Assembly: GCA_027604705.1 (NCBI GenBank)
Contig: JADHYV010000126.1
Span: 1-34,300 of the forward strand
Direction of reading: 5' to 3'
DNA length: 34,300 nucleotides
DNA from: Allomyces arbusculus
Lineage: Eukaryota > Blastocladiomycota > Blastocladiomycetes > Blastocladiales > Blastocladiaceae
The notes beneath the pieces were generated by a model that was given only the letters and a program-made list of their open reading frames with translations, was not told where the DNA came from and searched no databases. A program made the translations under genes and the position numbers. Each line of letters starts with the position of its first letter. Position 1 is the first letter of the stretch. Below are positions 1 to 34,300 of this stretch, one piece after another.

Positions 1-3000
1 TCGACCCAGTTCGTCTGGTAATGCACGGGCGGAATCGCCAAATCCGGCTCGTTGCGGCGCACGTGCGTGTTCAAAAACGCCTGCGCGTCGGCGACCGTCG
101 TCGGCAAGTGGCGCACGCCAACGGCCTCGGCGAGCGAGACCACACAGACCGGGTGCGACAGCGGCGGCGTGCCCGTCAACCCCAGCCGGAACCGCGTCTT
201 GAGCGTGAACAGCAACGTTTCTGCGACCCTCGTGTTGGTCCTTGACCACGCGTCGCGCGCCGACAGCACGTGCGACAGCTCGTGAATTTCGTCTATCACA
301 ATCCGGTGCCAGTAGACGCGGTCGAAAATCACCGCGTCTTTGTCGTTGCCGAACCGCGCGCGCGTGCGTTCATGCAGCCCTGCAACATGCGCGTCGAGCG
401 TGTTATTGTACTCGTGCTGGTACGCAGGGGTCGCCGCCTTGTACCACCGCTGCCGCCGGTAGAACGAGTCTTGCCATTCGAGGTAGCTGCGCGAGTGCTG
501 GTAGGCTTCGCGCGGCAAGCAGTACCGGCCGCCGGTCTTGGCGACTTTGGCGACCCGTTTCTGGTAGTTTTGGTTTTGCAGGAACGCGAGCGAGATGATG
601 ACCACGTCGGCGAGGAGCACATCGTTCCAGGTCAAGTCGCGGTGGTCGCGGATCGTCGCGACCTGAACGATCTTGGCACCGAGCGGCAGGCACTTTTGGG
701 CTTCGGCGACCCACTGCGTGACGAGGTCCGACCGGACGACGATCAGCGTTGCGCGCGAGACGAGGTACTTGAGCTTATCCGCCGGATCGTCCCACGGAAT
801 TGCGCGCACTGACCGGAACGGGTTGGCCGCGACGAGCGACAGCGCCATGACCGTCTTCCCCGCGCCCATCTTGCTCACCTCGAGCGCGCCGCGGCACTCG
901 AGCCCGGTAATGCCCAGGTGCAGGTCGTTCCAGACACTTGGGTCGGTCGCCGTCTTGTACGTGGCCAAGTTGACCCACATCCCGTCCTTGCCGAGCTGAA
1001 TCCAATTCGGGCACCCGCGCAACGTCGTCGACATGAACTGGCCGCGCTGCTCGGGCGTCGAGTTTTCCGTCGCTTGGTGCACGTGCACAGTCCTCGCCCT
1101 CCGGGACCGCTCGAGCGCCAGCAACCACCCCAAAGTGCGCTGCTGGTAATCGTGCAACTGCAATTGGAACCCTTGCGGCGTCGGCGCCGGCGCGTGTCCG
1201 CCCTCGATCGTGTCCGGCACGTAGAATTTCGGCAACCGGTACGCGTTGCGCGACTCGATCAGCCGCATCAGGTAGGACATTTGGCCCGGGAACCCGGGCA
1301 CGTCGACGCCCTCGCGCAAGGCGGCGTTCACGACGTCGGTTTTGAGGTAGGTGCACAGCTCGTAACGGTACTGGTCGTACCGGTGGCCCCAACCGTCGCG
1401 GTCCTGCGGCGCCGTCGGGTCGGGTGGGGAATAGACTTCGCCGTTGATACTGCGCAGGACCGTGCGGTAATACAGGTTGTGGTCGCGCGTCCAGCCCCAC
1501 ATGTTGTTTGCGCCGGACCAGACAATGAACAGGCGACCGGCCTTGTACGAGTTTTGGTCTGGTGAGCCGGTGCGGAAACGGGTGGTCAACAAAGAGAAAA
1601 GGGAAGAGCGAGCGTCAAGCAAGGGAAAGAAACAAAACGTACGCTCGTTGGCACCAGGTTCCTCGGGCCAATCGCCATCGTGCCGCCAGAATGCGTCCGT
1701 CGTGAACGCCAGCACGAGCCGGTCCATGACCGCGCGGTCGATCCCGCGTACCGCGTCCACAAACCCGTCCTCACGCACCTTCTCATCCTCCTCGCGCCCG
1801 GGACTCGGCTGCACGCGCTTGGCGCGCTCATAGTACGGGTCGTCCTTTTCGAGATCGGCAAAACTCTCGACCGTCAACTTTTTCAACTCCTCGTCCGACA
1901 CGGTCATCGAGTCCGGGTGCACGTAGTAGATGTCCTCGGTCATCATGCCCCACGAGTACTCAAAGAACCCGTCGTCCGTGATCCGCGGGCGGCGCACGCG
2001 CAAAATCGGCACGTAGCGGGCCGTCACGTCCGCGAGCACCGACGGCTCGAGGCACTTGAACGAGTTCATGTCGAGCGACGCGGGGGGCATCGGCAGGCGG
2101 AACCGCAGCGACACGGATTCGCTGTTCAAGAACAACTGGTTCTCGTTGCGCTCGAGCCCGGGCTTGACGGCGGGTGCTGCCTCCTGCTCTTCGTCCTCGC
2201 CGTCGTCCTCGAGCATTGGACGCGCGGGCGGCGCGGCTGCCTCACCATTGTTGTTGCCGATCGGGTCGAACCAGTGCCCGAACCCAGTGCGGTCATGCAC
2301 GCCCGCAGCGAGCAGCGCGCCGTCGTCGGCGTTCGCGTCGAGTTGGTTGCCCGCGAGGTCCACGTTCTCGGGTGTCTTGGAAAGCACGTCTGGGAAGTAC
2401 CGCCACCAGTTGGTTGCGTCGTCGTCCTGCTCCGCGTCGTCTCCGTCATTCTCGTCGGCGTCGGCGGCCGGTTGCACCGCGGCCGGCACGGCAGCGGCCG
2501 CAAAATGCTGCTGCGACAAGAACGCCGCCTGGCTGTCGACCACGGCGGCCTGGGACGACGACTCAGCGTGGTCGGGCACAATCTCGTCGATCGCGTGCGG
2601 GACCCAGTCGGCGGGAATTGCCTCGTCGTCGACGGTCTTCCTGGCCTTGGCTTTGCCCTTGCCCATTTTCGGCGCCGGTTCCGGCTCGGGCTCGGGTTGG
2701 TCCTCGTCATCGGTCGACGACGCCGGCTCGACATACTTTGGCGGCGACGGGCCGCGCGCAGCGCGCTCGGCGCGCGTCGCGCTGCGCGTCACGCGCGACG
2801 ACGACGCGGCCGGGGCCTCCTCCTCCTCGGCGGCGGCGTTGGCGGGCTTGGGCTTGGCGACCTTGGCTGGTGCATTGCGGCGCTGGCGCTTGGGCTTGGG
2901 CTCCTCGTCTTCCTCGTCGCTGAGGTCGCCCTCGGCCTCGGGCTCGGGCGCGGCAGCCGACGCGCGCGTCAGGCGCGGCGCGGTCGTGGGCGCGGCGCGT

Positions 3001-3155
3001 GCGGTACGGCGCGGCGTCACGGCAGCGCGCGGGCGAGCAGCAGCACGCGACAAGGCGGGCGGGTCGGCGACAGCTGGCGCAGGCAGTGGGTCCCCGGCAA
3101 TGGCGGCTGCGGCGGCGGTGGCGGCGGCGCGGCGCGGGCGGCGGGTCGCGGGCAT
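1..3155 (-). CDS. SNF2-type DNA-dependent ATPase/helicase, active-looking copy (3' end outside window)
   Basis: Exon 1 is 3155-1643 and exon 2 runs from 1558 off the left edge; the 84-bp GT-AG intron is phase 1. About 1023 residues are visible. The start is the first ATG before an Ala/Pro-rich, then acidic and basic, nuclear-type N-terminus. A conserved domain of unknown function follows (FFEYSWGMMTEDIYY near the end of exon 1). Exon 2 carries the SNF2_N helicase motifs: a Q-like motif LHDYQQRTLGWLLALE, Walker A KMGAGKT (G736-T740), motif Ia ATLIVVRSDLVTQW, Walker B VIDEIHELS (D927, E928) and motif III LGLTGTP (T966-P969). The family uses ATP hydrolysis to translocate on DNA and remodel chromatin or repair intermediates; Rad5/SHPRH-like and other subfamilies cannot be separated without the C-terminal half. 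Its paralogue lies at 31328-34300 in the opposite orientation. The SNF2 call is firm; the exact role is unknown. Confidence 0.88.
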   Translation of the reverse strand, partial: MPATRRPRRAAATAAAAAIAGDPLPAPAVADPPALSRAAARPRAAVTPRRTARAAPTTAPRLTRASAAAPEPEAEGDLSDEEDEEPKPKRQRRNAPAKVAKPKPANAAAEEEEAPAASSSRVTRSATRAERAARGPSPPKYVEPASSTDDEDQPEPEPEPAPKMGKGKAKARKTVDDEAIPADWVPHAIDEIVPDHAESSSQAAVVDSQAAFLSQQHFAAAAVPAAVQPAADADENDGDDAEQDDDATNWWRYFPDVLSKTPENVDLAGNQLDANADDGALLAAGVHDRTGFGHWFDPIGNNNGEAAAPPARPMLEDDGEDEEQEAAPAVKPGLERNENQLFLNSESVSLRFRLPMPPASLDMNSFKCLEPSVLADVTARYVPILRVRRPRITDDGFFEYSWGMMTEDIYYVHPDSMTVSDEELKKLTVESFADLEKDDPYYERAKRVQPSPGREEDEKVREDGFVDAVRGIDRAVMDRLVLAFTTDAFWRHDGDWPEEPGANERTFCFFPLLDARSSLFSLLTTRFRTGSPDQNSYKAGRLFIVWSGANNMWGWTRDHNLYYRTVLRSINGEVYSPPDPTAPQDRDGWGHRYDQYRYELCTYLKTDVVNAALREGVDVPGFPGQMSYLMRLIESRNAYRLPKFYVPDTIEGGHAPAPTPQGFQLQLHDYQQRTLGWLLALERSRRARTVHVHQATENSTPEQRGQFMSTTLRGCPNWIQLGKDGMWVNLATYKTATDPSVWNDLHLGITGLECRGALEVSKMGAGKTVMALSLVAANPFRSVRAIPWDDPADKLKYLVSRATLIVVRSDLVTQWVAEAQKCLPLGAKIVQVATIRDHRDLTWNDVLLADVVIISLAFLQNQNYQKRVAKVAKTGGRYCLPREAYQHSRSYLEWQDSFYRRQRWYKAATPAYQHEYNNTLDAHVAGLHERTRARFGNDKDAVIFDRVYWHRIVIDEIHELSHVLSARDAWSRTNTRVAETLLFTLKTRFRLGLTGTPPLSHPVCVVSLAEAVGVRHLPTTVADAQAFLNTHVRRNEPDLAIPPVHYQTNWV

Positions 3156-4937
3156 CGTGCAGAGTCGGTCAAGCGAGCAATCAGCAAGGGCGCGCGCTCG
3201 CGGCGGTGTCGAGGAAGCAGCAAGTGGTCGTTTTGCGGGGAGACTTGCCGGTGGTTCCCGTCGCGCTTTTGAGGGACGGCGGGGACGAGGCGACCCGAGC
3301 GACCAGGTGGTTGCGCTGGGCCCGCGAAAGAGGCGGAACTGGGCGGAAGGCGCGCGGAAAACCGAAAGCGGGCGCATTGTGGCGCAACGCGCCTTTGGTG
3401 GGACTCACTCGCGCACCGCAGCATCCATGCCTGCTGCCTGGCCGTCCAGTCGACTCACTGGGTGCGCACCCACGCCTCAACACACAAAATAATGAGCAGA
3501 TCAGCTTTGACCTGTCCCGCTGTCACTGCCAATATGGCAACGATGGCAGCAAACTAGACAGTTGTAGTGAATCAAATCGAGTCGCTTGCATCAGTTTCCT
3601 GTTCACTTTCTCTTCCTGTCACATTGCTCAAGTTCAGTGCCATTTCGAGAAAATCAAAGCGCAAAGTGGGTTCGGCACGTACAATCACAAATACGAGTAG
3701 AAGCACGCCGACAACTCATGCCAGACGAGAAACCTTGGTGAGCAGCAACTTGGTCATGAACCACAACATGGCGTTGCAGTAGGACTTGCCACCAGGATCA
3801 AATGGCCGCTTGAGCATGTCATGGCTGGTGCAATTTGTGTTCTCCTCGAAAAACGTCGTTTGTGGCCTTGGTCGACTTATTGATGCGAGAAGAAGGAGCG
3901 GGATGGTCGGGAATTGACGTGTCATGCAGCATGCTGGTCAGTTGCTGGTTCTGGTCGAAGTCGCGCGCGTGGGCAATGACCACTTTACGGTGCACGTCCC
4001 AGTCTTGTCGTCATTGCCACTACTGCATAGCGGCCGCAGCAGAATGGCGTGCATGTATGCCTGATTGTGGCCCAATGGCACATGTCCTACCTGCCAAGAC
4101 ACCCCAGTTTTCTTCAATTGCGCGTGTATCGTCCAAACTCTGCGTGTTGGCGTGCTGACTCTTGTTTTTTTCAATCGTGTCGCGTTGTCGTTGGTCCCGT
4201 ATTCTGGTTGATGTGCTCCATCGCATCACTCACTATTTATTGTGCTTGCAGCGCCTGGTTACCACGTTTGATCGTGCCATGTGCTTTTGATTCCCATTTC
4301 TAATGGATAATGTCTTGCTTCAATTTTTATTGCGTTCGCCTTTTTCCGTTGTGATTTCTGACTTGTTTGCATGGCCATTGAATAGCGCCATGATGCCCAC
4401 TCCCAGGGAGCACGATCCTGTCTGTGGCATCTGCTTCTCCATGGCTGCAGCAGCAATTTTGCGTTCTTATTGGTCCTTGCACGATCAGGTTGTGCTTCAA
4501 ACTTAAATGTGGCTGCAATCTGTAGCACTTTAATGACGCCCCATTTTTTGATTCGCAGGGCAAGGCGCCTTGGGCTTTCCTTTGAATCTGTCATGGGTCA
4601 TGGTGGCATTACAGAAAAATGGTATAATGATCTTCATCAGCAAGACTCACTGCCGTGGCCGTGCTTCTTGCAGCCGTCGACGGCTTGTTCGCCAGTGATT
4701 GACAGCGGACACCAAGAGCGACAAGCAGAAAAGAGTCCAGCGACGCTTGATACAAAAGAGCATGACTCCGGTCCTCGCGTCTCTTTCAAGCCCTCTCTTG
4801 CCTGCCGTCGTGCACGCGTCAAAGGGGCGGTGGTCGTCTTGTCCAAAACTTGTCCGGTGACCTTTGCACACTGCTGTGGCCACCACTGCGCACAACAACA
4901 CATCTTTTCTTGTCGCAGTACAAACGCCGCTGGCACC
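3156..4937. other. intergenic, no gene seen
   Basis: The stretch separates the divergent SNF2-like gene (-) and the first small + gene. The first 350 bases are GC-rich and probably hold the SNF2 promoter and 5' leader; the rest is AT-richer than the coding regions. Open frames on both strands are short, lack codon bias and match nothing I recognise. An open frame runs upstream of the ATG at 4938 as far as an ATG near 4590, but its composition is not protein-like. I see no tRNA or repeat. Confidence 0.5.
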
Positions 4938-13935: not shown

Positions 13936-16900
13936 TCACTCCACGGCGCTCACCCCGCTATTTTCCCCACGCGCAGCCGCGCCCGCTGCCGCCCGACGTC
14001 TCGCATTCCGCCTGATAGCCGGAACCGGCGTGCTCGGCCCCGCATCACTCGTTTCCGAACCCGACGACAGCTTGGCGGCGCGAGTCCTTGGTGCCGGTCC
14101 CGGACGCACCACTGGTGCCGCGAACGGCGAAGCCGGCCGAGGTGCTGCCATCGTTCCAGCGCGCGGTGCCCCCACCGGGGCGGAGCGTCGCACCAAGTGC
14201 ACGGGCGCGCCGTACACCACCGGCGCCGCGCCAATCAGGTACGGGAAATGGCAATGCTCCCGCGCGCGCGCAACCGCCGCAGCCAACGACGGCGTCGTCT
14301 CCGTCTCAGCCGCTGCCGTTGGCGCACCGACCAGCGGCGGTCCCGGCCGTCTCACGGTCATCGGCGCACGGAACCGTCCCGTTGCCCCCACAGTGGGCAC
14401 AATCGGCGTCGCGCTCGGCCCGCGGTCGCGCGTGCGTTCCACGTCCACGTCCCCTTTACGCGACTCGCCATCCACGGCGGGCAGCGGGAACAGTCCCCAT
14501 GACGTGAGTGCTGCGAGCGCGAACCGGTCAATGTCCTTGTCGGTCACGTCCCACAGATTGGCCACGACGCACGGCGCGTGCAGGAGGTAGTTGAGTGCCG
14601 TGCCCATGGGCTCGAAGTCGCCGGCCGCGGGTAACTTGCCCGAGGAGCAGCCCATCAGGAACGCGGCCTTGACGGATTTCGGCAGCGACAGGAGACGTTT
14701 TGGCGGGCACAGGGATTCGCCGCCGCCGTGGCCGAAATAGAGGAACAGGTCGTGCGCTTGCAGGGCGGCGAGAAAGTGGGATTCGGACTCGGGCGGGACG
14801 CCGAGGTGGCCGTGCCAGTCGGGGCACGATCTATGCGTTGACATCAAGTCGGTCAGTTCAGAGTCCGTCACCCCTAGCGAAATCCGCACACACCGGCAAC
14901 GTACCGCATCATCGGCTCAAAGACGGCCTGCGTGCCCGGCAAGTCTCCCGCCGGATTTACCACATAATACACGCTCGTCCCATCCACGACCACAGGATCC
15001 GCGCGTCTCGCGAGCGCCGCATCCAGCATATCCATCCCAAACAGCCGTGACACGGGCACGCCGCGTAACGCGACCGTCGCCTCCCACGGGATCGGCATCA
15101 TGTGCTTGTCGAGAATGAGGAACACATGCTCTGGCATATCTACGTCGATACTCGCCGACTGGGTCACTGCCGCCAGCAAGAACGCGCGCACCGACGCGAA
15201 TTCGAGTGTCCCACCCGTGACGTCGTCGTCGGTCGTCGCGACCGGGTACCCCGCGCGACTCGCCTCGTCGAGCACGAAATACGTCATATCGTCAAAATCC
15301 GACGGCGTCGCGGTCGTACCGAGCGCGAGCCACGCGTGCGCGACAATGATCGGCACCTGCAACCGTCTCCGCCGCCCGGTCGGCACCGGCGGGACCGCAG
15401 AGTCAACAAACCGCGCCAAGTCCGTCAAGAACTTGCCTGCACCCGAGTGCCGCGCGGCGTGCAGGAGGCCGCGGAACCCGCCGAGCCATGCGGTGTCAAT
15501 TTCGGTCAAGACAGAGAACAAGTCGCGGTCCTGCCGAGTCCGCGTGTCCCACCACCGCACCTTATCCTCGCGCGTCACATAGTTCTCCTTGAGCATCGCC
15601 TCGCTGGCAGAGACCACACCGTCGAGCGTCGCTCGAACACGCGCGTACGTCGGCGCCTTGGTCGCGAAGGACGTCCCCGCGCGAACCGACGCGCGCAGGA
15701 GCGGCAGGCGCACGGTCGCGTGATGTTCGGCGCGCGCAGTGACTACAATCAGCACGTTCCGCACTGTGTCGACCGAGAGCCGGACGACGGCCCATTCGGG
15801 CGGGACGGGCGTCGTCCCGTCGTCGTCATTGGCGGCGAGATCGTCGTCCTCGGGTAACGCCAGCGTCACGAGTGACTCTTCGAGTGGTTCCGCCAACGCG
15901 GACCGGACGGGCGTACGCCGTGGGGTCAGCGTGGATCGGCGCGACCGCGGCGTGCGTCCAAACATCGTCGTTGCCGGGGTCTGCGGCCCCACTCTCGGTC
16001 TCCCGGCGGCGCGGTCCGCGGGCGTCGGTGTCGCCGGCCCCGAATTCCCACCGACTTGTGCGGCAACTGCCGTCCCACCTAACAACGCGCGCATCCGGCG
16101 AAACGTGACGCCATGACATGTCTCCTCGAGCAGCTCCCCCACATCAATCTGGGACTCGATCCTCGCGACGCGCTTGACCGCGTGAATCGCCATGAGCATA
16201 TGCGCCGCGTCCAAAAGCACCGCGGGCGCGGCCACTTCGCCACACTCGCGCACCGCCGCCCACAGCACCTGTTCCGCCAAATCCAGCCGCGCCGTGATCC
16301 GCGTATCTGTGACCAATGGCGCTCCCACGGGGGGTACCACATCCGTCGCGTCGAGCACGACCACGGCGTCGTCGAGCGCCGCGACCGCGGGAATGCGCCG
16401 CAGTGCGCCGGCGACCAAGTCCAAGTGCAGCTTGGCCACGTGGTGGAAGAAGGGCGCGCGTGCGTCGGGCGCGAGCGCGTGGGCGGCGTTGAGTGCGGCC
16501 ATGGTGCGTTTCTCTGCGTCAGGTCGCCGGTTCTGCAGGGCCAGCACGTCCGCGTGGAGTCGGGCAAGGTCGGCGTCGAGCGCGCCGACGTGCGCGGCGC
16601 GTAAATGTTCGTTCTTGCCGGACGTGGGCGGGAGCATTCGGTGCACGCGCGGCGTGTAGGCCGCGTCGGCGAGTAAGTCCGTCACCGTCCGCCGCGCCTT
16701 GACTCGGGACACGACGTCGGCCGCGGCGAGACAGTACCGGTCCGCGGCACCGACCGCATCCGGAACACCACCGCGCGCGCGACGGACAGCGACGTGTCCG
16801 AGCTGGACGAGCCGCATCGCTCCCTCGACCGCCGGCTCCTCCCCTCCCTCCACTCCCTCTCCATCCCCAAGCAACCCCACGGCCTCGTCCAGCTCCCCCT

Positions 16901-19900
16901 TCCGCTCCGCGACGTACGCCAACCACGTCGCGAACCTTAGTTTCGCTACCGTATTCCCCCTGCGCTCCGCAGCGTCCATCGCCTGGCTCGCATACACTTC
17001 CGCATCCCGCCAGAGCCCCGCGACCGCAAACAGCCCAACGACCGCATCCGCGACCTGCACCGCCGCGTGCGGCGCCTGTTTCGCCAACGGCACTGTCTCG
17101 AGCGCTTTCACCAGCGCATCGATCCCGCGCCCTTGGGCCCGCAACCACCGAATCCGCGCGCGGTTGCGCGCGACCGTCGCGACCATTCCCTGGCCGGGAA
17201 CCACGCCAAACACGTCCAGTGCATCGAGCAACGGCGCGGCTTTTGCCGGATTCGCCGCGGCCACGAGGTACTCGGCATAGACGGCCGTCCAGTGGTGCCT
17301 CTCGCTCGCGGGGAGCGGGGCCAGGTACTCGCGCGCAGTCGCGAGGGCCGAACCGACGTCGGCAATGTACCCGAGGTCGAGGTACAGTTCGGCGAGGCGG
17401 ACGAGGGTCGCGGCCTTGCCGCGGTCGGTCGAGTCGATCAATAGTTGCACTTGGTAAAGGATCGGGAGTAAAGAAGTGGACGCGCGGCCGAGTAGGACGC
17501 GCTCGATGTGGTGCAGGTGAAATTGGGTGTCGTCGGGCGAGATCAGGGTGTTGGACGTGACGGCACGCTTGTACAGCTGGAATGCCGCAGCGAGGTCGGC
17601 GTGCGCGCGGGCCGAGGCTGTGGCATCGGGCGAGTTGAACGTAGTGGTGGAGAGGAACGCGCGGTAGACGTGGGCGGTGGCGAGTAAGTCAGGAACAAAC
17701 TGTGCCGGTTCGGTTGGGGGCAAGTTGGGCGACTAGATCGCAACGTGCATGTATTCCCAGTCAGTTCCCAGTCCAAAAGTTGCCCTCCACTCCAAACACC
17801 AACGTACACTCAGTAACGCAATCGCCTCCTCGCACCATGCGCGCATCCTCTCCTCCTCCTTTTTCTCAACCTCCTCACCACCCTTGGCCGCACCCACCGC
17901 CATGATCCGACACAACAGTGCATGTGCCCTCGCGACCATCCCACCCGCACTACCCCTCGCCCACTTGACCCACATCCTCAGCACCCGATCGGCCACCTCC
18001 GTCTGCCGTGCGGCAAACAGGTACTTCCACTCGAAGAAACACACCCAGTGGTCCGGGACCTCCGCGGCCATCGGGCGATACTCCTCCCCTTGCCTCGCCA
18101 CCGCCTCGCGCCGTAGTTGCCGCCCGATAAACCGCGCGACCTCGTGCCGGTCGCCCGTCCGGACGACCGCGCGCAACGCCGCGCGCAGAGTCCCGCGGTC
18201 CCGCGTCCGCGGTGGGGACGAAGTCGATGTGGCCATGGCGTCCGCGGCGTCTGCGTCGGTGACGACGCGGTCAATCGCGGAGACGAGTTCGAGTTTCCGC
18301 GCGAGCTTGATGCGGAGGTCCGGATCGTCGTGAGATGCGAGGTGCCGCTCGAGCACGGCGACGGCCATTTGCGCGGGTTGCAGTGCTGCGCGGAAGTGGT
18401 TCCGGGAGTGCAATGTCGCGGCGAGGTGCTGCAACGCATGGCTCACCCTAACAAGCGGCGACTGAACCGCCGTGGCCCCGACCGCGGGTGCGGGTGCGGG
18501 GACCAAGTCTGCCAACTGCGCGGCCTTCCCGAGGTACCCGACGGCCGTGTCCGTCCCGTCCTGCGCGGCGGCGAGTTGCGCGAGGTACAGCAACCACTCG
18601 AACAAGCTGCTCGCCACCGCCTGGTCCGAATTTACCGCGGGGGACAGCGCGGCCACGAGCAGCGCGACCGTATCGTGAATCAACGCCTTCGCGTAGGCCA
18701 CGCTGTCGTTGAACGGATTCAACGCGTCGTCGCGCGCGTTCACGCGCGCGGTGAATGTCGAGGCTGCCGAGACGTACCGCGACGCCGCGGACCGCGCCGA
18801 TATTGGTGGTGCGGCGCGCGGGGTGCGCAAGCACGAGAGTAGATCTTCGAGCGCGGAGGTGACGGTGGCAAAGTCGGCGGTGCCGATGCGCGTGATCCGG
18901 GCGCGCGCGTGCAGTAAGTGCAGCGAGAGGAGGTGGTCCGGCGGCGGGGCGCGGGGTGCGAGCCAGTGCAAGAGCGACGCGATCGTCGCGTCAGCGTCGG
19001 CGGGCGCGTCGGACGTGGTGGTGGCGAGGGTCGTGCACCATGCGACGGCGAGTCGGGTAAGCCGGTCGATATCGACGTCCGGGTGCGTCGCGACGTCCTT
19101 CACCACCCCCACCGCACCGTTCGCGGGCGGACCCCACTTGATCAGTGCCGCAGTCAATTCCGCGACCGCCCAGTGGCCCCGAACGAGCCAAGTCACGGCG
19201 CGCGGGTAGAGCGGCGAGTCGGTCACGGCACCGGCGAGGTCGAGGACCGTCATGACGAGGCGCGCGGACGTGACGCATTGCGCGCGGCACGTGCGGTCAT
19301 CGAGGCCGGCACCCGGCAAGCACGCGAGCCACCAGTCGAGACTGCCCGCGGTGGTGACAGGGTCGATGTGTTGTGTGACGGAGGATTGCGCGAGCGCGCG
19401 GTCACCGGCCTTGACGAGCACGCGCAAGTAGTGCTGCAGGTGCGTGACGACGACGAGGACCAGGTCGCGCGCACGTGGAGTCAGGACAAACGCGGGCGGC
19501 GGGACCACGGCAAAGAGCGAAGAAGACAAGTTGGATGATGCCGGCCCTGGCGGCGTCGTGCGTCCCGTACGTCCGGTCTCGGCAAGCCGCGACTCGAGCC
19601 GCGCCTTGACGGCCGCGATCAAGTCGAGCGCGTCGTGCGTCGCCCCGGCGTCGACGATAAACGTCATGATATTGGCCAGCCGCTTTTCAATCAGCGCGTT
19701 GGGTGCGAGCGATTCTTGCGCAATACCAGCCGCGCGTAGTTGCGTCTCGACCGCGGCCAGCGCTGGGAGAGTCAACCGGACCGTCTGGACGAGGTAGTCG
19801 CGACGGCGCATCCATTGCGGTCCGAGCGGTGGTGATTGGCGTTCCTTTGCTTGCACAGCCTGCAGCGAGTCGGCGCACGCGCGCAATAAGCGCGCGAGTG

Positions 19901-20462: not shown

Positions 20463-22263
20463 ATGGCCCACCTGTCCAGCAACAACGCCAACATGATCAC
20501 CATTACGCACGACACGTTCATGGCTGCGTTACCCGTCGTGCGTGAGGCCATCGCCAAGGCCGACCTGATCGCGCTCGACTGCGAGTTCTCCGGTACTGAT
20601 CCCAGCCTGTACCGCGGCGCCGTACCCTGCCATGTCTTGCTCGCGGCCCTCACACCGCTCAATACGAAAGGACTCCAGGAATCGACGACCCACACGCTAC
20701 CCCACTCGACCGACCATTGTTCTACGACTCGCCCGAGCAGCTCTACCAGAAATCGCGTGCCATCGTAGCCAAGTACCGCCTCCTGCAACTCGGTCTGTGC
20801 TGCCTGACCAAAAGCGGCAACAATTCCAATACCTACGGTGCGCGCGCATTTGCCTTCCACCTGTGCCCGCGCGCGCACGCCGACCTCGGGCTCGACTCGA
20901 CCGTCACGTTCCAAACGTCGGCGCTGCAGTTCATGGCCAAGAATGGATACGATTTCGGGCTCACATTGGGCCACGGGATCGCACACTTGAGCCGTGCCGA
21001 CGTGCGGCACGTTGAAGTGGATGCACAGCCGTACCCGTTCCAGGCGGTATTTCGGCCGGCGTTGGGCGAGGCCATGTACGCCGTCTTGTCTTTGCGCACG
21101 AGTGAGGAGATGTGTGATCTGACCACCATAACAGTGCGCAAATCGAGCGCTTCCTCGCCGACTTCCACGCGACCCCCCTGCCGCCCCAGGGCATCAAACC
21201 GGCCGACCTGCCCATCCTCTTACTCGACCGTGCCTCTCTCGGTGCCGGCGACCGGATCGAGCTCGAGCGGCTCTTCGCGGGCCAAGTCGACATCACCGGT
21301 TCGGCCACGGATATTCGCCATTTCCACTTAACCCCACGAACGGGCCGCGCCGCGTCGCATTCGGTCGCGCCCGATGCGGCTCACCGGACGCGTATCGTCA
21401 AGGAAGGTACGCTTTTCGGGAAAGTCATGGACGCGCTCGTGGCCGCCAAGAAGCCAGTGATTGGACACAGCGTGTGGTTCGACCTGCTGTTTATCTGGCA
21501 CGAACTCGTCGACGACTTGCCGCCGACGTTGGCCGAGTTCTGTCAAGCGGTGCACGCGATGTTCCCGACGATCGTCGATACGAAATACTTGGCGCACCGG
21601 ATGTTCGGCAACGCGCAAGTGGCGCTCAAGAGCCTCTACGCGTGGACGCCCGGCGCCAACGCCGACGCGGGGCCAGGGTCGCCATCGCTCGCAACAGCGT
21701 TCCCGCGTGATTCGGATTCCGACGCGCCCATGCCCGATGCGGCATGTCCACCGCTACCGACGGTTGCAATCGACGCGCACCACGACCAGTACTTCACGGC
21801 GACCGCGTTCCACGACGCGGCGTATGACGCCTACGCGACTGCGTGCGGGTACTTGAAACTCGCGCACCACGCGATGCACGTCGCGCGCGTGTGGGATTCC
21901 GCGACCGAAATCCCGAGCGATTGGGCCAACGGCGTGCAGTTGCACGATAACGTGTTCCGCAACGTGCGGCTGGATTCCGGGAACGAAGGGCCCGGGCGGC
22001 CGCCGGGTTTGGGTGACCGGGACGCGGTGTTGCGCGTGCGTGTGCAGGGTGGTGCAAGTGCGGCGGAGGTGGTCGGGCGGGTCGCGCGTGCGGGGACGAA
22101 GAAGTTTGAGGTGCGGTTTGTCGCGCGCGACGTGTGGTTTGTGGATTTGAAGGAGGTGGACGATGTGGAAGGAGTCGTGCGCGCAATTGAGCGCGGAGAA
22201 GCGGGGGAGGGGGACAAGGAGGGTACGGGGGACGGCGCCTGGACGGTGGTGCGCGTGTGGTGA
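20463..22263 (+). CDS. PARN: poly(A)-specific ribonuclease PARN (DEDDh exonuclease)
   Basis: Exons 20463-20592, 20679-21075 and 21135-22263 give 551 residues. The second donor (GTACGC at 21076) is the best of two in-phase options; the other is at 21031. PARN removes poly(A) tails 3' to 5' from mRNAs and matures small RNAs. Catalytic residues are in place: D39 and E41 in ADLIALDCEFSG, D292 in VIGHSVWFDLL, and H402/D407 in FHDAAYDAYATACGY. Flanking signatures also match: FYDSPEQLYQKSRAIVAKYR, LLQLGLCCL, FQTSALQFMAKNGYDFG, and MFPTIVDTKYLAH. A C-terminal region (about 450-551) has RRM-like character. In the middle, the loop before the third motif is a low-complexity Ala/Pro/Asp stretch. It shares the intergenic region with separase. 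PARN is absent from budding yeast but common in zoosporic fungi, which fits the inferred host. Confidence 0.93.
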
Positions 22264-23406: not shown

Positions 23407-25674
23407 ATGTCCACCAGCATGACCCCGCACGAACCGAAGCGCTCACGCGCGCGCCGCGCCGTCGCGCTCCCCACGACCTTGATGCTCGTTCTCGCCGCTG
23501 CCGCGCTCCTCGCGGCCGCGCCCGCGCAGTCGGCCCCACTCGCGCGCCGGTTCCCGACGACCGCCGCCACCGCTGCCGCCAAGGTTGCGGGGATTGCGGT
23601 CGCTGAAGTCGCCGCCGAGCCGACGCCAAGTTCCGCGGTCTACATCCCGCCGGCCGCCGCGGCGACAGCGGCAACGACGACAGCCGCGCAGGTGCACGAG
23701 CCATGGGTGTCGTACTACCCGAGCAGCAAGCCCGGCACGGTTGTGGACCAAGTGCCGCCGCGCGGGCCTGAGACAGTGACAGCGACGCAAGCGGCCACGA
23801 CGGCGCAAGGCTCGACGTTGGCGACGCCCGTGTCGAGCAATGCCGCGGGCGCGACGAGCGCCGCGTCGGCGCCCGCGCCGGAGACCAACTTGGTGAAATT
23901 GCCGGTCGCGACGAGCGTCGATGCTGGGGACGAGACGGTTGGACTCCCGTGGCCGGAAGACGAGACAGTCGGACTGCCGCTACCCGAGGAAACCACCGCC
24001 ACCACGGTGACGACGGTGGTGACGGCAAGTCATCACGCGACGACGACCGCCCTGGCGCAGACGTCCGAGTCGGTTGGGACGCGCGTGGTCGATGCGACTA
24101 CGACCGGTGCCGGATTGGCGACGACCGGGGTCCGTTCGACCAAGATTGCTGAGTTGACGGCGAGTGCCAAGCCGACGGCGACAATTAAAGAGTCAAGTAC
24201 GGGTGCTCACTCGACGGCCACGGTCATTGCCGAACCGACGAGCGTGGCCGAGTCGGCGACGGCGATTTCCGCGCGGTCTACGATTGCCGTCGACTCGACG
24301 ACCAAGATTATTGCTGAACCGACGAGCGCAGCTGCGTCGGCAACGGTCCATTCCTCGAGCGCCGTCGTGTCGTCGACAAGCACCAAGCCTTCCAGTGCCG
24401 CCGCGTCGGCGACGACGGAGATCGAGGCCTCAAGCATCAAGGAGTCGAGCACGGTCGCCGAGTCGACTGCCGCAGCGTCGGCCACCATCCACACGGCCAG
24501 CGCCAGCACGATCACGAGCGTGCTGTCGACGCCAACGACCGAGGAATCGAGCACGCGCTCGTCGGAATCCACGGCTCAGGTATCGGCTTTTGCTGCCGAT
24601 TCGACGACGCTCCTAGCGCACAGCAGTGCCACGGCGACGGCGACGCACAACTCGACCAGCAGTACTGCCACGGTGTTGGCGACGCGCGACTCGACCAGTA
24701 GCGCCGCGTCGGCAACGGTTGACACGACGAGCAAGGCCGCGGCGTCAACGGCGTTCGACTTGGCGACAAGCAGTGCCGTTGCCGAGCCCACGGCGCTCTC
24801 TGAGTTCACGACGCTCGCCGAAACCGAGACGCTTGACTCGACCCTCTCCACCACGACCGCAATGGCCGACCTGCCCATCACCACGCAATCGGCGTCGTCT
24901 TCCTCATTCTCGACTCACACAACGCGTCTCGTGACGCAGCCATTTGCTGCGCAGGGCCAGTTTGTCGTGCGCACCATCATTGGCACGCCCGCAGCGCCTG
25001 CGTCTACCGAGACGCCCGTGGCCGAGCCGACGCCCGTGGACGCTGCCGCTGCCAAGATCGTTGCGGCCGCGCGGAAGACCACCTCACTGGCACTCGTTAC
25101 GGGGTTCCGTGTCGCAGCCGTGGAAGAGCCCATGGTCACGGGCGTGCGCGCCGTGGCCGAGCCCGAGGAGACGGACGCGTCGGACCAACAGTCGAGCGTG
25201 GAGGCAACAGTGCTCGTCGAATCGACAACGACCGTGAGCGCAGATGCGACAGCGACAAGCGAGGCGACTTTCACGACCGACGCGCTCACCTTGATCTCGA
25301 CGACGCCTGCGGCGGAGCCAACGGCCGTGCCTGAATCAGCAACGACCAACGAGCGCACGGCGAGCGCGACGCAACTAGCCACCGTGACGACGACCGAGAC
25401 GGTCACGGTCACGCACCTCCCCTCGTCGACGCACTCGACCTCAACCGCGTCGGCGCCCGCTCCGGAAACCACGATTGAGCTGGCCGGGTCGATCACGGCC
25501 ATTGTCAACGGCGAACTCATGGAATTCTCGGGCGTTGCACGCATCATTGAGGACAAGCTCAAAGTGGCCTTCAGTGGGCCCATGTTCTCGGGCCAGGCTG
25601 AGGGCCGTGTCGTCGGTGCTGGAGCCACAAACCTGGTGAGCGTGAGTGGGGCTATCGCGTCGGCCGAGTACTGA
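23407..25674 (+). CDS. secreted Ser/Thr/Ala-rich mucin-like protein
   Basis: A single uninterrupted frame of 755 residues. The N-terminus is basic (residues 1-19) followed by a hydrophobic core (LPTTLMLVLAAAALLAAAP, about 21-39) with a likely signal-peptidase site after AQS-A near 43. Most of the rest (about 140-650) is Ser, Thr and Ala with imperfect short repeats such as STSSTATVLA, EPTSVAES and related blocks, typical of heavily O-glycosylated wall or surface proteins. A short PPR-rich piece with HEPWVSYYPSS lies near 98-108. The last 65 or so residues differ: low in Ser/Thr, with GSITAIVNGELMEFSG, ARIIEDKLKVAFSGPMF and repeated Gly-Ala, suggesting a small beta-rich domain. No C-terminal hydrophobic anchor is visible, so a GPI anchor is unlikely. 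Function unknown; a cell-surface or extracellular role is inferred from composition. Confidence 0.8.
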   Translation: MSTSMTPHEPKRSRARRAVALPTTLMLVLAAAALLAAAPAQSAPLARRFPTTAATAAAKVAGIAVAEVAAEPTPSSAVYIPPAAAATAATTTAAQVHEPWVSYYPSSKPGTVVDQVPPRGPETVTATQAATTAQGSTLATPVSSNAAGATSAASAPAPETNLVKLPVATSVDAGDETVGLPWPEDETVGLPLPEETTATTVTTVVTASHHATTTALAQTSESVGTRVVDATTTGAGLATTGVRSTKIAELTASAKPTATIKESSTGAHSTATVIAEPTSVAESATAISARSTIAVDSTTKIIAEPTSAAASATVHSSSAVVSSTSTKPSSAAASATTEIEASSIKESSTVAESTAAASATIHTASASTITSVLSTPTTEESSTRSSESTAQVSAFAADSTTLLAHSSATATATHNSTSSTATVLATRDSTSSAASATVDTTSKAAASTAFDLATSSAVAEPTALSEFTTLAETETLDSTLSTTTAMADLPITTQSASSSSFSTHTTRLVTQPFAAQGQFVVRTIIGTPAAPASTETPVAEPTPVDAAAAKIVAAARKTTSLALVTGFRVAAVEEPMVTGVRAVAEPEETDASDQQSSVEATVLVESTTTVSADATATSEATFTTDALTLISTTPAAEPTAVPESATTNERTASATQLATVTTTETVTVTHLPSSTHSTSTASAPAPETTIELAGSITAIVNGELMEFSGVARIIEDKLKVAFSGPMFSGQAEGRVVGAGATNLVSVSGAIASAEY

Positions 25675-28648: not shown

Positions 28649-29075
28649 GTGCCGAGGAGAGGCTGTGGAAGCCGTGAAGCCTTCGAAGCGCCATCGAGAA
28701 TCAGCTCTGTTGGCCGAACGCGCGTTTGTGGAGAAGGGAAACGTGGAAGACGCCGCAGCAGGGGAGCTCCACTGGCCACAGACATTCGCTTGACCATGGA
28801 AAGCTAGCAATCAAAAATAATGCGCATTGGGTTGACGCGAATTGACAATTTGAGTAGGTCAACATTTCTCGTACCGTTCACCTGGCGCCGCATTCCATTT
28901 CAACACCCCGCCACCATCCATTTCAACTGAAATTTCCACGACCCCACCTTCGACATTGAGAAACGCGTTTCGTTTGGTACACAACATGTATTGGTTGCTT
29001 CGCAGGGATTTCCTTGAGTATTTTTGGCCAGCACGCACCAGTATCCGCGAGCCAGCTGGCGGGAGCAATGCGGAG

Positions 29076-29141
29076 GAGCGATGCGGCGCGAGTACGGGAG
29101 CGATACGGCGCGAGTACGGGAGCGATGCGGCGCGAGTACGG
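29076..29141. repeat. 22-bp tandem repeat, three copies
   Basis: Three consecutive copies of a 22-bp unit beginning GAGCGATGCGGCGCGAGTAC; the middle copy has A for G at one position. A shorter relative (GAGCAATGCGG) lies just upstream and a partial copy (GAGTGACG) just downstream. The unit length is not a multiple of three, so it is probably not coding. Confidence 0.85.
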
Positions 29142-31327
29142 GAGTGACGTTGAAAGAGTCCGGAGACAACACGGTATGAGTACAGAAACAATGCGGTGCC
29201 ATGGACGTGCCAGTCCAATAGGCAGAGCGGCATGAGGAAGCTTATTCAAGGAGGACGAGGGCGCGCTCGACATCTTCATTCGCGTCAGGAGAACAGCGTG
29301 ATATTTTCGGAAAACTTGGCGGATCGCATGGTGCAGGAGATAGACCTTGAGCAATTGGCGATGTGTGCAAGCGGCCTGATTCGCTGGTGGCAAGCCGTGC
29401 TCGACTGCACGAGCTGGACGTGAGGCTTGAACGGCTGACGGTATCCGAGAAGCACAAGGAGCGTGGGCAAAATGAGCGCGAGCGGGGCCTTGGCGACGCG
29501 ACGCGTCCAAGCTGACCGAGAAGTATTGGTGGTGTGCGTAGGTCGAGAGAGAATCGACGATTCACATGCACGGCAAGGTGCTTGGGGACAACTGCGACGG
29601 GTGAGTGGCACGTGGCGATCAGCTTGCGCGCGAGCAGAGCATGATGCTTTAGAGGTCGACGGGAGAGGAGCAGCAGCGTGTATCGGTTAAGCTGGGTGGA
29701 CGTATCAGCGGCGTGCATCTTGCGAGCTGGACGAGAAGTCTCACAGGTGCGCAGCAAGCAAGCTGAGCTCGAAGAATTAACGTCGGGCAGCTTACGAGCG
29801 ACATGAGAAGTCGGGGCGATGCCAAGCTAGCGTGCTGAGCGGGAATCATCAGCAGGGTGCAATGACAAGCAACGATGTGTCGCCAGGTAGCTGGATACGT
29901 GGCACCAGCTGACTGGGCGAGCGGTAGAGAGCATGGCCGCGACATGGAGCGAGCAGGTTGGGCGAGAAGTACCGGCGCGTTGCAAACAAACATGTCACTC
30001 AGCTGAAGTGCACAGTGATTTTGCGACGCAAACTGCAACGTTTCCCTTGCGATGTGACTGCAACGTCTCCCCGTTGGCGGTTGGCAGTGTGCGCGATGTG
30101 ATGTGATGCGAGGCGATAGGACAGCAACGTCTCTGCGTGCAAATAATTCACCTTCGCTTATGGCTGCAATCACTGATACTGACACAGTCGATATCAGTTA
30201 TGGAGTAGTCACCCACCACCACCTGATCCTCCTCCATTCACGCCTCTGCCAGGGCGGTACGCCGCGCGCCACGATCGGCTTGTTGTTGACTACCTATTCT
30301 GGCTCGTTGTTTACCGCCCATTGTTGTCATTCCGTTCTTCTCATCGATGATTGATTACGATTACGTTGGCGCTCACCAAACATTGCTGCCAGACGAACGT
30401 CTCCCACGCATGGTTATGGGCAACAAAACTTGCAGGTACAATCATGCTTATCGAGGAAATCAACTCTAGCGGCCATGATCAGCCAACTTGGCGTCTCCCA
30501 TCCAGGACACCACCTCGAGATGGCAACCAAGTCAACTTCAGTTGCGCCAACAATAACACGCGTCGCATTTCCGGAAGTGTCGAGAAGACGAGCAGGCCAA
30601 ATCAACTGGCTAACAGGGCGGCACACAGGACGCACGACAGTGGCCGGAATTGACTGGCCTAGTGCACTTGCCCATGTGCGTGGGGATATCAACGCCGAAA
30701 GAGTGCCCAAACACTTGCCGTTTGGTTGGCTGTTCGTACATAGTTATGGTGGCAGCAGGTTCTGCGGCTCCGAATCGTTGAGCTGCAGAGTAACATGGAC
30801 ATGCAACAAGGCTTGGGCATCGACAGCAGTTCACAAAATGCTGCAGGTGGGGCGCAATGCCCGTAAATCATTGCTGGGTTTGGACGTGGCAACGGGACAG
30901 CCGCGGACGGTATCGTCTAGCTCGATCAAGTGTTGAGTGACGAGGTGGTGCAACAACTCGAGCGGTCGGTCAGATTGGCAATCGTGTTCAGATGATGAAG
31001 TTGCACCCTGCTCGTTTCCATGGCGGTCAAACCGTCAGCAGCTTCTTGAAGATCAGTGTGCAGCAAGTCGTGCAAGTCGGGAGGGTCCAAAGGGCCAAGG
31101 CTGTTTCTGCGGCCGAGCAACGCCGTTGATGCTGCTGGGTCACCTCTCTCATCAGCCGACCCCTCAGTTGATGTGCGAACAATTTGTTACGCTCGGTGTT
31201 GGTGCATGGGCAGACCATTTCCTGAGGTTTCCAGGAGAAGCTAGCGCGATGTTCATTCGCATCTAAGGGCCATCTATGACGTAGCTCCTTGCAGAATCGT
31301 GAACACTATCAAGCTGGAAACGACAGC

Positions 31328-34300
31328 ATGCCCAAGAGCCGCCACAACGATGCGGCTGCCGCCGATGATGCTTCAGCGCCCATTTACGAGCCGGCTCGCC
31401 AGGTCTGTTTGCCCAGGGCGCCTAGCTCGGAACAGAGCGCGCGAACAGAAGCGACAAGCGCGACCACGACCACATCTTCAACTGCAGGGCCGCAAGATAG
31501 GCCGAAGCCTACGCACGTGTCTTCAGATTCCGACTTGGAACCCAAGCGCAAGCGGCAATGTGTCCAGAGTTCCACCAAGGCCGCTGACAGCCAGGCGGCC
31601 ATTATCGAGCAGCAAGGCCAGTTTGGTTCAGCCGGCCAGCTCAAGGACGATGGAATGAGCAACTATGGCGACAATGTGCACGCTGACGCGATTTCGTGGT
31701 GGCGCGTCTACCCGGACGTGCTCAGCAGGAAACCTGAAGACGACATGGCTGGCCCTTGCTGCGACGACGATTGTTCTGTCGATGCTTCAACATTGCTGTG
31801 TGCGCGCGACGTGATGGATCGCGAGGAAAAGGATGAGGAGCACACTGACGCGGCAACAGTTCGCCCTCAACTTGCACGCAACGCCAACGAGCTCTTTGTG
31901 AGCTCGGGTGGGGCCTGGGTGCAATTCCGCCTGCCCATGCCGCCGGGATCGCTTGACATGAGCACGTTCAAGTGCGTGCAGCCGACTATTCTCGCGGACG
32001 TGACCATGCGCAATGTCCCGGTCCTGCGCGCACGCCGCCCGCGCATCACGCCCGACGGTTTTTTCGAGTACTCGTGGGGCATTGTGACCGAGGACATGTA
32101 CTACGCGCACCCGAAGTCGACGACCATGTCGCCTGAGGAGATTGCCGCTCTCACGGTCGAGGATTTCGCCGACTTTGAGTTGGAAGACCCGTATCACGAT
32201 CGTGCCAAGCACGTCCACCCGACTGAGGGCCACGAGGACGACGAGATTGTCAATTTTGACGGGTTTGCCGAGGCCGAAATGGGCATCGAGCGCAGTTTGG
32301 TCACTCGGCTCGTGTTTTCGCTCAATTCGGACGCGTTTTGGCGCCATGACGGCGATTGGCCTGAGCGGCCTGGTTCCAATTTCCGTACGCTGTCTTCCAC
32401 TTGAACAATTGCGCATGTTTACCATCAATTCCTGACCGCATGGTTGCCACGCATGGTTGCCACCGATCCAGATCAAGACTCTTATGCGGCTGGCCGCGTC
32501 TTCATCGCTTCGTCGGGCACCAACAACATTTGGGATTGGACGGCCGACCGCGACAAGTACTACCGGATCGTGCTGCGCAGCATCAAGGACAAGCCCTACG
32601 CACTGCCCGGCACGCACGCCATGTCGTCGTACTACGTGCCAAACCACTTGCTGGAGCAGTACCAATACGACGTCTCGATCTACCTCAGGACCGACATTGT
32701 CCACGCGGCGCTGCGTGACAGTATTGAAGTGCCCGGGCTCAAGGACCAGATCGCGTCGGTGCTGCAGATTCTCGAGGCACGCTACAAGAACTCGCCGCCG
32801 CACCTCTACGTGCCAGGCACGCTTGTGGCCGGCCATGAGCTCGCGCCGACGCCGCCGGGGTTCCGGCTCGAGCTGCGCGACGATGAGCGGCGGGCGCTGG
32901 CGTGGATGCTCGCGCTCGAGCAGAGCCGTCGTGCGCGTACCGTTCATGTCCACCGCGTCACTGGGCTGTCGCCACTCGCGCAGCGGCTATTTGAGCGCAC
33001 GACAGTGCGCGGGTGCCCAAACTGGATCCGGCTCGGACCCGGTGGAATGTGGGTCAACCTCGCGACTCTGGAGGCGGCCGAGGATCCGAGCGTGTGGTCT
33101 GGACAACGGGTCGGGACTGCCGAGATCGAGTGCTGCGGCGCAATCGGGGTCAGCCCGATGGGCGTGAGCAAGATCGTCATGGCGCTTTCGCTCGTGGCCG
33201 CCAATCCACTTCGTTCGGTGCACGCGACCCCGTGGGATGATCCGGCCAACAAGCTCAAGTACCTCGTCTCGCGCGCGACGCTGATCGTCGTGCGATCGGA
33301 CCTCGTCACGCAGTGGGTCACCGAAGCCCAAAAGTGTCTGCCGCCTGGTGCCAAGATCGTGCAGGTCGCGACGATCCGCGACCACCGGGACCTGACGTGG
33401 AACGACGTGCTTCTTGCCAGCGTCGTTATCGTCTCGCTCGAGTTTCTGCAAGACGCCGACTACCAGAAAAGAGTCGCCGAACTCATCAAGATGGGCGGGG
33501 GGTACTGCCTGCCACGTGCAGCGTACCAGCAGGCGTCGGACATCGGCATTCCGCTCGATGCGTGGAGCCGGTGGAAACGCTGGGCGCAAACACCTGCACC
33601 AGCCGACGCGACCGCTTTCAATGATCTCATGGACGCTCATATCGCGCAACTCCAAGAGCACTCGCGTGCGCAGTTCGGCACTGATAAGGACTGCGTCATT
33701 TTTGACCGAGTCTATTGGCACCGGATCGTGATTGACGGCATTCACGAGCTGTCGCACGTCCAGGGTGCACGCGCGTACGACGAGGCAGCCGCCGACACGC
33801 GTATGGCCGAAACATTGCTGTTTTGCCTCAAGGCTCGGACCCGGCTCGGGCTCACGGCCACGTTACCGTCGACGATGCGGCCAGCAGACGTGTCTGCACT
33901 CGCCGAGTCTGTGGGCGTGCGTAATCTGCCATCGACAGTCGCCGACGCGCAAGCGTTCTTGAACACGCACGTGCGTCGCATCGACCCGGATCTCGCAATT
34001 CCGCCCGTGCATTTCCAAACTATCTGGGTGGATTTGGCTCCCGCCGCGGTCGAACTTGTGTCGTCGTACCAAGGGCAGTCGATCCGGTTGCGACTCTTGA
34101 TGTGCAACCTCCTGCGCCGGATCAAGGACGATGTCGTGGCTGTGACGGGGGTTACGGTCATGTCTGACGTGACCATGACCGAACGCAACGTCGACGGCCT
34201 GGGCGGGGACGCCGATTATGCGGTCTACGGCTCCAAGATCAAGGCGCTCGTGCAATTTGTGCGCCGCGTGGTGCGCGCCGACCCGACGGCCAAGCTGATT
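31328..34300 (+). CDS. SNF2-like paralogue with degenerate ATPase motifs (3' end outside window)
   Basis: Exon 1 is 31328-32384 and exon 2 runs from 32472 to the right edge; the 87-bp phase-1 intron (GTACGC donor, CCAG acceptor) splits the same His codon as in the paralogue at 1-3155. 962 residues are visible with no stop. Similarity to the paralogue covers the pre-helicase domain (FRLPMPP, RPRIT-DGFFEYSWG, DAFWRHDGDWPE) and the SNF2_N core, where long blocks are nearly identical (KLKYLVSRATLIVVRSDLV). It continues into SNF2 domain 2 (GSKIKALVQFVRRVVRADP). Key residues differ: Walker A is MGVSKI (582-587) instead of MGAGKT, Walker B is DGIH (G775) instead of DEIH, and motif III is TATL (814-817) instead of TGTP. 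ATP hydrolysis is therefore unlikely. The Ser/Thr-rich N-terminus diverges. The start is the first ATG in the open frame. Confidence 0.85.

Follow-up and report, generated by a model that had tools for sequence, protein, structure and literature searches.

A SNF2-family paralogue in Allomyces arbusculus with damaged ATP motifs and an open reading frame apparently under purifying selection

The locus described here raises the question of whether a SNF2-family gene that has lost its ATP motifs and keeps a long open reading frame is retained by selection or is on its way to decay. The window, by which we mean the whole stretch of DNA analysed, is the entire contig C126 (34,300 bp) of a genome that was searched as 25.9 Mb in 197 contigs, and it carries two related SNF2 copies, c1 and c2, both of which run off its ends. 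The genome is eukaryotic, as the separase and CAF1-domain frames of the window show, and its 39 matches to the chitin synthase family PF03142 accord with a fungus, although 4 of 14 control genomes match that family as well. The initial annotation had singled out c2 as a long frame with an ancestral intron and damaged nucleotide-handling motifs, lying 28 kb from an active paralogue. These features were confirmed: the frame extends over 962 codons from its ATG to the contig end, and the core ATP motifs of c1, as judged from alignment, appear intact. The coordinates of c2, of its motifs and of the related copies are collected in Table 1.

Table 1. Positions of c2, its motifs and related SNF2-family copies, in window coordinates unless a contig is named
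Feature	Position	Strand	Description
c2 as assembled	31328..34300	+	962 open codons in two exons, then contig end
c2 exon 1	31328..32384	+	N-terminal region, 352 codons and one base; frame open from the ATG
c2 predicted intron	32385..32471	+	87 nt, phase kept; GTACGC donor, GATCCAG acceptor
c2 exon 2	32472..34300	+	SNF2 N-lobe and beginning of the C-lobe; no stop up to the contig end
Q motif, damaged	32882..32926	+	YQQR (c1) to DERR (c2), plus the following helix; from the nine-copy alignment
Walker A / motif I, damaged	33158..33175	+	MGAGKT (c1) to MGVSKI (c2); Lys kept
c1-like block	33250..33420 (approximate)	+	same codons as c1 at 41/53 against 137/248 elsewhere; Fisher p 0.003, chosen after looking
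Walker B / motif II, damaged	33728..33745	+	VIDEIH (c1) to VIDGIH (c2); Asp kept
Motif III, damaged	33851..33868	+	LTGTPP (c1) to LTATLP (c2)
c2 deletion junction	34165..34215	+	about 85-135 bp from the contig end
c1, active-motif paralogue	3..3377	-	on the contig of c2 in opposite orientation; likewise truncated by the contig end
C79b	contig C79, 69630-73844 (locus L033)	+	1405-residue open frame; about 15 kb from active-motif C79a
Headless C-terminal SNF2-family tails	C160 left end (L037), C56 left end (L036), C95 right end (L038)

The predicted intron of c2 contains a stop codon, and the spliced junction reads SNF followed by HQDSYAAGR in frame. A predicted 84-nt intron occupies the same position in c1 (donor at 1642), and GT...AG boundaries are readable there in the five further paralogues inspected (C95, C6, C20, C1 and C74); the intron is thus conserved in position. 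Residues 91-352 of exon 1 can be aligned to c1, C95, C20, C1, C74 and, in part, C6. Exon 2 scores 32 bits against the SNF2-related domain PF00176, above the curated cut-off of 24.9, and c2 thus belongs to the SNF2 group. The best common DNA block of c1 and c2 is 82.6% identical over 413 nt. Among the nine copies described below c2 has the lowest GC3 (0.779), a point against a retained gene. Its base-change spectrum is much like those of C95 and C6.

The multi-member family to which c2 belongs, and its relics, had been overlooked by the initial annotation. With c2 exon 2 as the query the genome yields 20 matches, which comprise at least nine long-frame copies (c1, c2, C95, C6, C20, C1, C74, C79a and C79b) and otherwise fragments; seven of the nine possess intact core ATP motifs and two, c2 and C79b, are dead. 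A helicase-C query gives 29 matches, other SNF2 genes among them. Genome-wide, PF00176 is matched 36 times, 8 times within the family of c2 with a best score of 51.2 bits and 28 times elsewhere with a best score of 322.5, which marks the family as a divergent side branch of SNF2; the six active paralogues scanned as proteins score 32.9-56.2 bits. Those active members that are sufficiently complete share the order SNF2 N-lobe, helical linker, RING finger and helicase C. Among the matches listed, relics broken into short frames are found on C135, twice on C73, on the minus strand of C79 and on C56, and c2 is unlike these relics in its assembled part. The copies on C135, C73, the C79 minus strand, C79:51031 and C56 and the C160 tail stood outside the nine-copy alignment and the codon models, and C79b was kept out of the set termed active. 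The placement of c2 among c1, C95 and C6 is poorly supported (40-54%).

A comparison of 17 flanks for carriage by transposons (C135, C73 and the upstream side of C79b were left out) returned a sole long match of 2.2 kb, between C95 and C56, and other matches of 30-175 bp. The long match covers frames that by eye are F-box/LRR-like and lie near the SNF2 copies on these two contigs, namely L027 5759-7999 (-) and L036 1678-4104 (-), with 73% DNA identity over the 2.2 kb. Similarity to the flanks of C95 and C56 is also seen in the window at 30775-30947 and at 30483-30544, and a related relic may therefore lie upstream of c2. The c1-like block within c2 is possibly a short gene-conversion tract or else the product of plain constraint; a similar excess of codon identity between C95 and C6 in the same block (p 0.004) suggests that constraint may be the cause. 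The telomere pattern TTAGGG x3 found no match, and in the viral collection one stretch matched a pattern and none encoded a relative. Elsewhere in the window, two frames at 13936-17186 (-) match successive parts of the separase profile PF03568 (6-298 and 297-395) and probably belong to a single gene, separated by an intron or a frame change. A CAF1-family ribonuclease frame at 21427-22263 (+) matches only the C-terminal part of PF04857 (199-318 of 320). The 755-residue frame at 23407-25674 (+) is rich in Ser, Thr and Ala, matches nothing in Pfam at E 0.1 and has a hydrophobic stretch near its start; by eye it resembles a protein that is secreted or part of the wall. A 26-bp exact direct repeat lies at 29075-29144, its copies 44 bp apart, start to start.

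Alignment of the nine copies bears out the damage reported earlier for Walker A, Walker B and the TGTP motif, and it adds the Q motif, which had escaped notice. Motifs Q, I, II and III are all damaged in c2, at core residues kept in seven of the nine long-frame paralogues, and the wider Walker A stretch has gone from KMGAGKT in c1 to PMGVSKI; motif Ia is intact (0/9 residues changed). Among the 40 motif columns that are invariant in the seven active copies c2 has changed nine: three in the Q motif and its helix, the Gln among them, the Gly and Thr of Walker A, a single residue in motif Ib, the Glu of Walker B, and two in motif III, namely the Gly and a Pro. Not all nine are known ATP contacts. 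When the five close active copies are each left out in turn, only 3/203 motif residues are changed (Fisher p 6e-6 against the 9/40 of c2), whereas outside the motifs c2 differs less clearly from them (9/85 against 23/448, p 0.08); within c2 alone the contrast between motif and outside changes is not significant (p 0.10). This count is strong only against the five close copies, because the distant active copies also change motif residues (C74, 8/48 in the motifs and 19/104 outside; C79a, 4/44 and 23/108), although both still carry GAGKT, DE and TGTP cores. Changes of this kind, which in c2 affect the Gln of motif Q, two Walker A residues (Gly and Thr), the Walker B Glu and the Gly of motif III, impair SF2 ATPases, and from these residues of known function we infer that c2 has lost ATPase activity. 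A structure prediction for exon 2 from a two-sequence alignment (mean pLDDT 32.8) was too poor for use.

Selection on the frame was assessed with a GY94 codon model (F3x4) over 511 codons of the nine copies, columns with codons in fewer than eight of the nine being dropped. The c2 branch has an omega of 0.157 against a background of 0.163, an average over the time before and after motif loss on a branch that no orthologue splits, and omega=1 is rejected (2dL 64.5; 67.8 on a second topology); the values themselves are rough, since synonymous sites are strongly diverged. When the nine terminal branches are tested singly, no significant departure from the rest is found for any of them (largest 2dL 2.9). 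For exon 1 alone the c2 branch gives 0.114, with omega=1 again rejected (2dL 35.2; 241 codons of seven copies, C79a and C79b being left out and C6 partial, on a tree set by hand after the codon tree). A partition test, applied to seven of the nine branches (C74 and C79a left out), found the c2 branch faster in the ATP motifs (51 codons; 0.141 against 0.067, nominal 2dL 5.2 with neutral time fixed) and not faster in the 438 codons outside them (0.170 against 0.184, 2dL 0.6) or in Ia/Ib (0.043 against 0.051). The relaxation of the c2 motifs is suggestive only, because it is one of 21 uncorrected branch-by-partition tests and C1 deviates too, in the slower direction (2dL 7.6). The expectation attached to the earlier reading, a dN/dS well below 1 outside the motifs, thus agrees with what the c2 branch displays. 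A neutral segment placed at the end of that branch fits best at zero length; a tail of about 0.12 codon substitutions per codon, a value obtained by interpolation between 0.10 and 0.15, costs roughly 1.9 lnL on a branch of 0.88 and serves as a rough upper bound.

Simulated neutral drift offers a separate view of the same problem. The starting sequence was the final 962 codons of the c1 frame as it stands in the window with its intron. At each of three indel rates (0, 0.03 and 0.1 per substitution) 20,000 runs were made, with thresholds of three, five and eight motif losses, the last being the nine observed less one expected. Eight losses had accumulated before any stop or frameshift arose in 10, 5 and 0 runs, respectively, five losses in 295, 75 and 6, and three in 1721, 755 and 225, which is not rare. 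The whole set of losses is consequently hard to place in a neutral period, while a few of them are not.

A further change, also overlooked initially, concerns the C-terminal part. Residues 10-574 of the exon 2 protein correspond to 19-591 of C6 and residues 575-619 to 805-849, so that c2 has an apparent in-frame internal loss of about 213 residues relative to C6, comprising the helical linker and the RING finger (745-787 in C6). As assembled, c2 thus has no RING between its helicase lobes, and the contig stops at the start of the helicase C lobe, the lobe that would carry motifs V and VI. RING fingers score above the cut-off in C1, C20, C6, C74 and C79a; c1 and C95 end before it. If the contig end is correct, the loss speaks against a retained role of c2 as a RING ubiquitin ligase.

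The codon data and the drift runs bear on the idea that c2 is an early pseudogene, active until recently, which has lost its function and has yet to acquire a stop or frameshift in its assembled part. Copies of this family do die, as the relics attest, a dead gene may lack its RING and its motifs in this way, and a neutral tail up to the bound given above is permitted; on the other side, a neutral gene nearly always meets a stop or frameshift before it reaches eight motif losses, the codons outside the ATP motifs show no relaxation, and the splice sites and all 962 codons are kept. We regard early decay as rather unlikely on balance. That c2 is still an ATPase with unusual motifs is far less credible: Walker A still has its Lys and Walker B its Asp, but the Gln of Q, the Gly and Thr of Walker A, the Glu of Walker B and the Gly of motif III have been lost together, and we consider continued activity highly improbable.

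The deletion invites a different objection, namely that the contig end of c2 is chimeric or collapsed and the RING loss artificial, which would leave the motif losses real. Both SNF2 copies of C126 sit at contig ends, C95 also stops inside the family, and the deletion junction lies close to the end of the contig. Among the matches seen, three heads have no tail (c1, c2 and C95-left) and three tails no head (Table 1), two of which, C56-left and C95-right, by eye share about 75 nt of family tail at their start; breaks between contigs evidently fall within this SNF2 family. Against an artefact, the last 180 bp of C126 match the four other places found at only 79-85%, and the motif changes sit hundreds of bases inside the contig. 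A faulty contig end is improbable as an account of the RING loss. The reading that we favour is that selection has probably preserved c2 as a pseudo-ATPase with a binding or partnering role: it combines loss of the ATP motifs with a frame under purifying selection, as averaged over its whole branch, which is to be expected of such a protein. The earlier proposal of a retained function is therefore better supported than decay, by omega, by the drift runs and by the contrast with the relics; the specific roles that accompanied it, a DNA- or chromatin-binding partner or a dominant regulator of the active copy, we can offer only as conjecture.

A second copy of the family is ATP-dead. In C79b the Walker A glycines and motif III are gone, and the Glu of Walker B has become Gly, as it has in c2; its RING-like match falls below the curated cut-off (25.5 against 27.9 bits), and PF00176 finds no match to it in either the genome-wide or the protein scan. 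Outside the motifs it has changed 29/85 residues. Its branch has an omega of 0.10 and, in the partition test, is faster in the ATP motifs (0.164 against 0.059, 2dL 15.4) with 0.157 against 0.186 outside. In the protein tree C79b is sister to C79a with 100% ultrafast bootstrap and stands apart from c2, so the two copies seem to have suffered their losses independently. In both cases an active copy lies on the contig of the dead one (c1 and c2 on C126, C79a and C79b on C79), a linkage that may be due to chance, as there are two cases and the family also clusters. It is tentatively conceivable, though doubtful, that linked pairs of an active and an ATP-dead SNF2 paralogue have arisen repeatedly in this lineage, in which the dead member would be a non-motor subunit or a competitor tuning the active remodeler.

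A profile of the seven active paralogues was compared with solved structures and matched best to PDB 7r76 and its kin (deposited as 'DNA repair protein Rad8', 5.6e-25), 7r76 being Cryptococcus DNMT5, followed by 6l8n (Rad5, 8.4e-19). Proteins of the Rad5/Rad8 type, fungal DNMT5 included, have the same order as the active paralogues (SNF2 N-lobe, RING, helicase C), in contrast to c2, which is devoid of the ATP motifs and, as assembled, of the RING. Fungal proteins reported as Rad8 are said to be likely DNMT5 (PMC7862722), and the SNF2 part of DNMT5 is related to that of Rad8 homologues (PMC13297926). Membership in DNMT5 itself was rejected: the methylase domain PF00145 is absent from all family proteins scanned. 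Its 11 matches in the genome fall on C3, C10, C12, C19, C22 and C27, none of which is a contig of the family members found.

Pseudohelicases are already known. Yeast Utp25 (PMC9539457) and Deinococcus PriA (PMC4504706) are helicase-like proteins with roles that do not need the ATP motifs or that outlived their loss, much as we suggest for c2; Utp25 is DEAD-box-like and both belong to families other than that of c2, and their roles are bench-tested, whereas that of c2 is putative. An inactive relative beside an active enzyme, as c2 is beside c1, is likewise described in PMC13297926 for DNMT3L and for Mta9, which forms a heterodimer with the catalytic Mta1. These are methyltransferases, unlike c2, whose partnership is putative; the proposed SNF2 pairs would be the counterpart of dead/active enzyme pairs such as Mta9/Mta1. 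Judged by titles and abstract openings, and with subscription journals mostly outside the search, the literature searched contained no naturally ATPase-dead SNF2 paralogue that we recognised.

Taken as a retained pseudo-ATPase, c2 would have arisen by duplication within an expanded Rad5/Rad8(DNMT5)-like family with the order SNF2, linker, RING and helicase C. It would have lost ATP binding and hydrolysis through motifs Q, I, II and III, and with them the RING finger, while its N-terminal region, the residues of the SNF2 fold and motif Ia would have been kept under purifying selection. The gene is presumably expressed, and selection on it would have acted after the loss of the motifs and not solely before it. 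Its role would most likely be that of a passive DNA- or nucleosome-binding platform or of an inactive partner to c1 or another active paralogue. If expressed, c2 and C79b would allow one to study the function of a SNF2 protein deprived of its motor, and possible control of live copies by dead ones, in a family that is both expanding and dying within a single genome.
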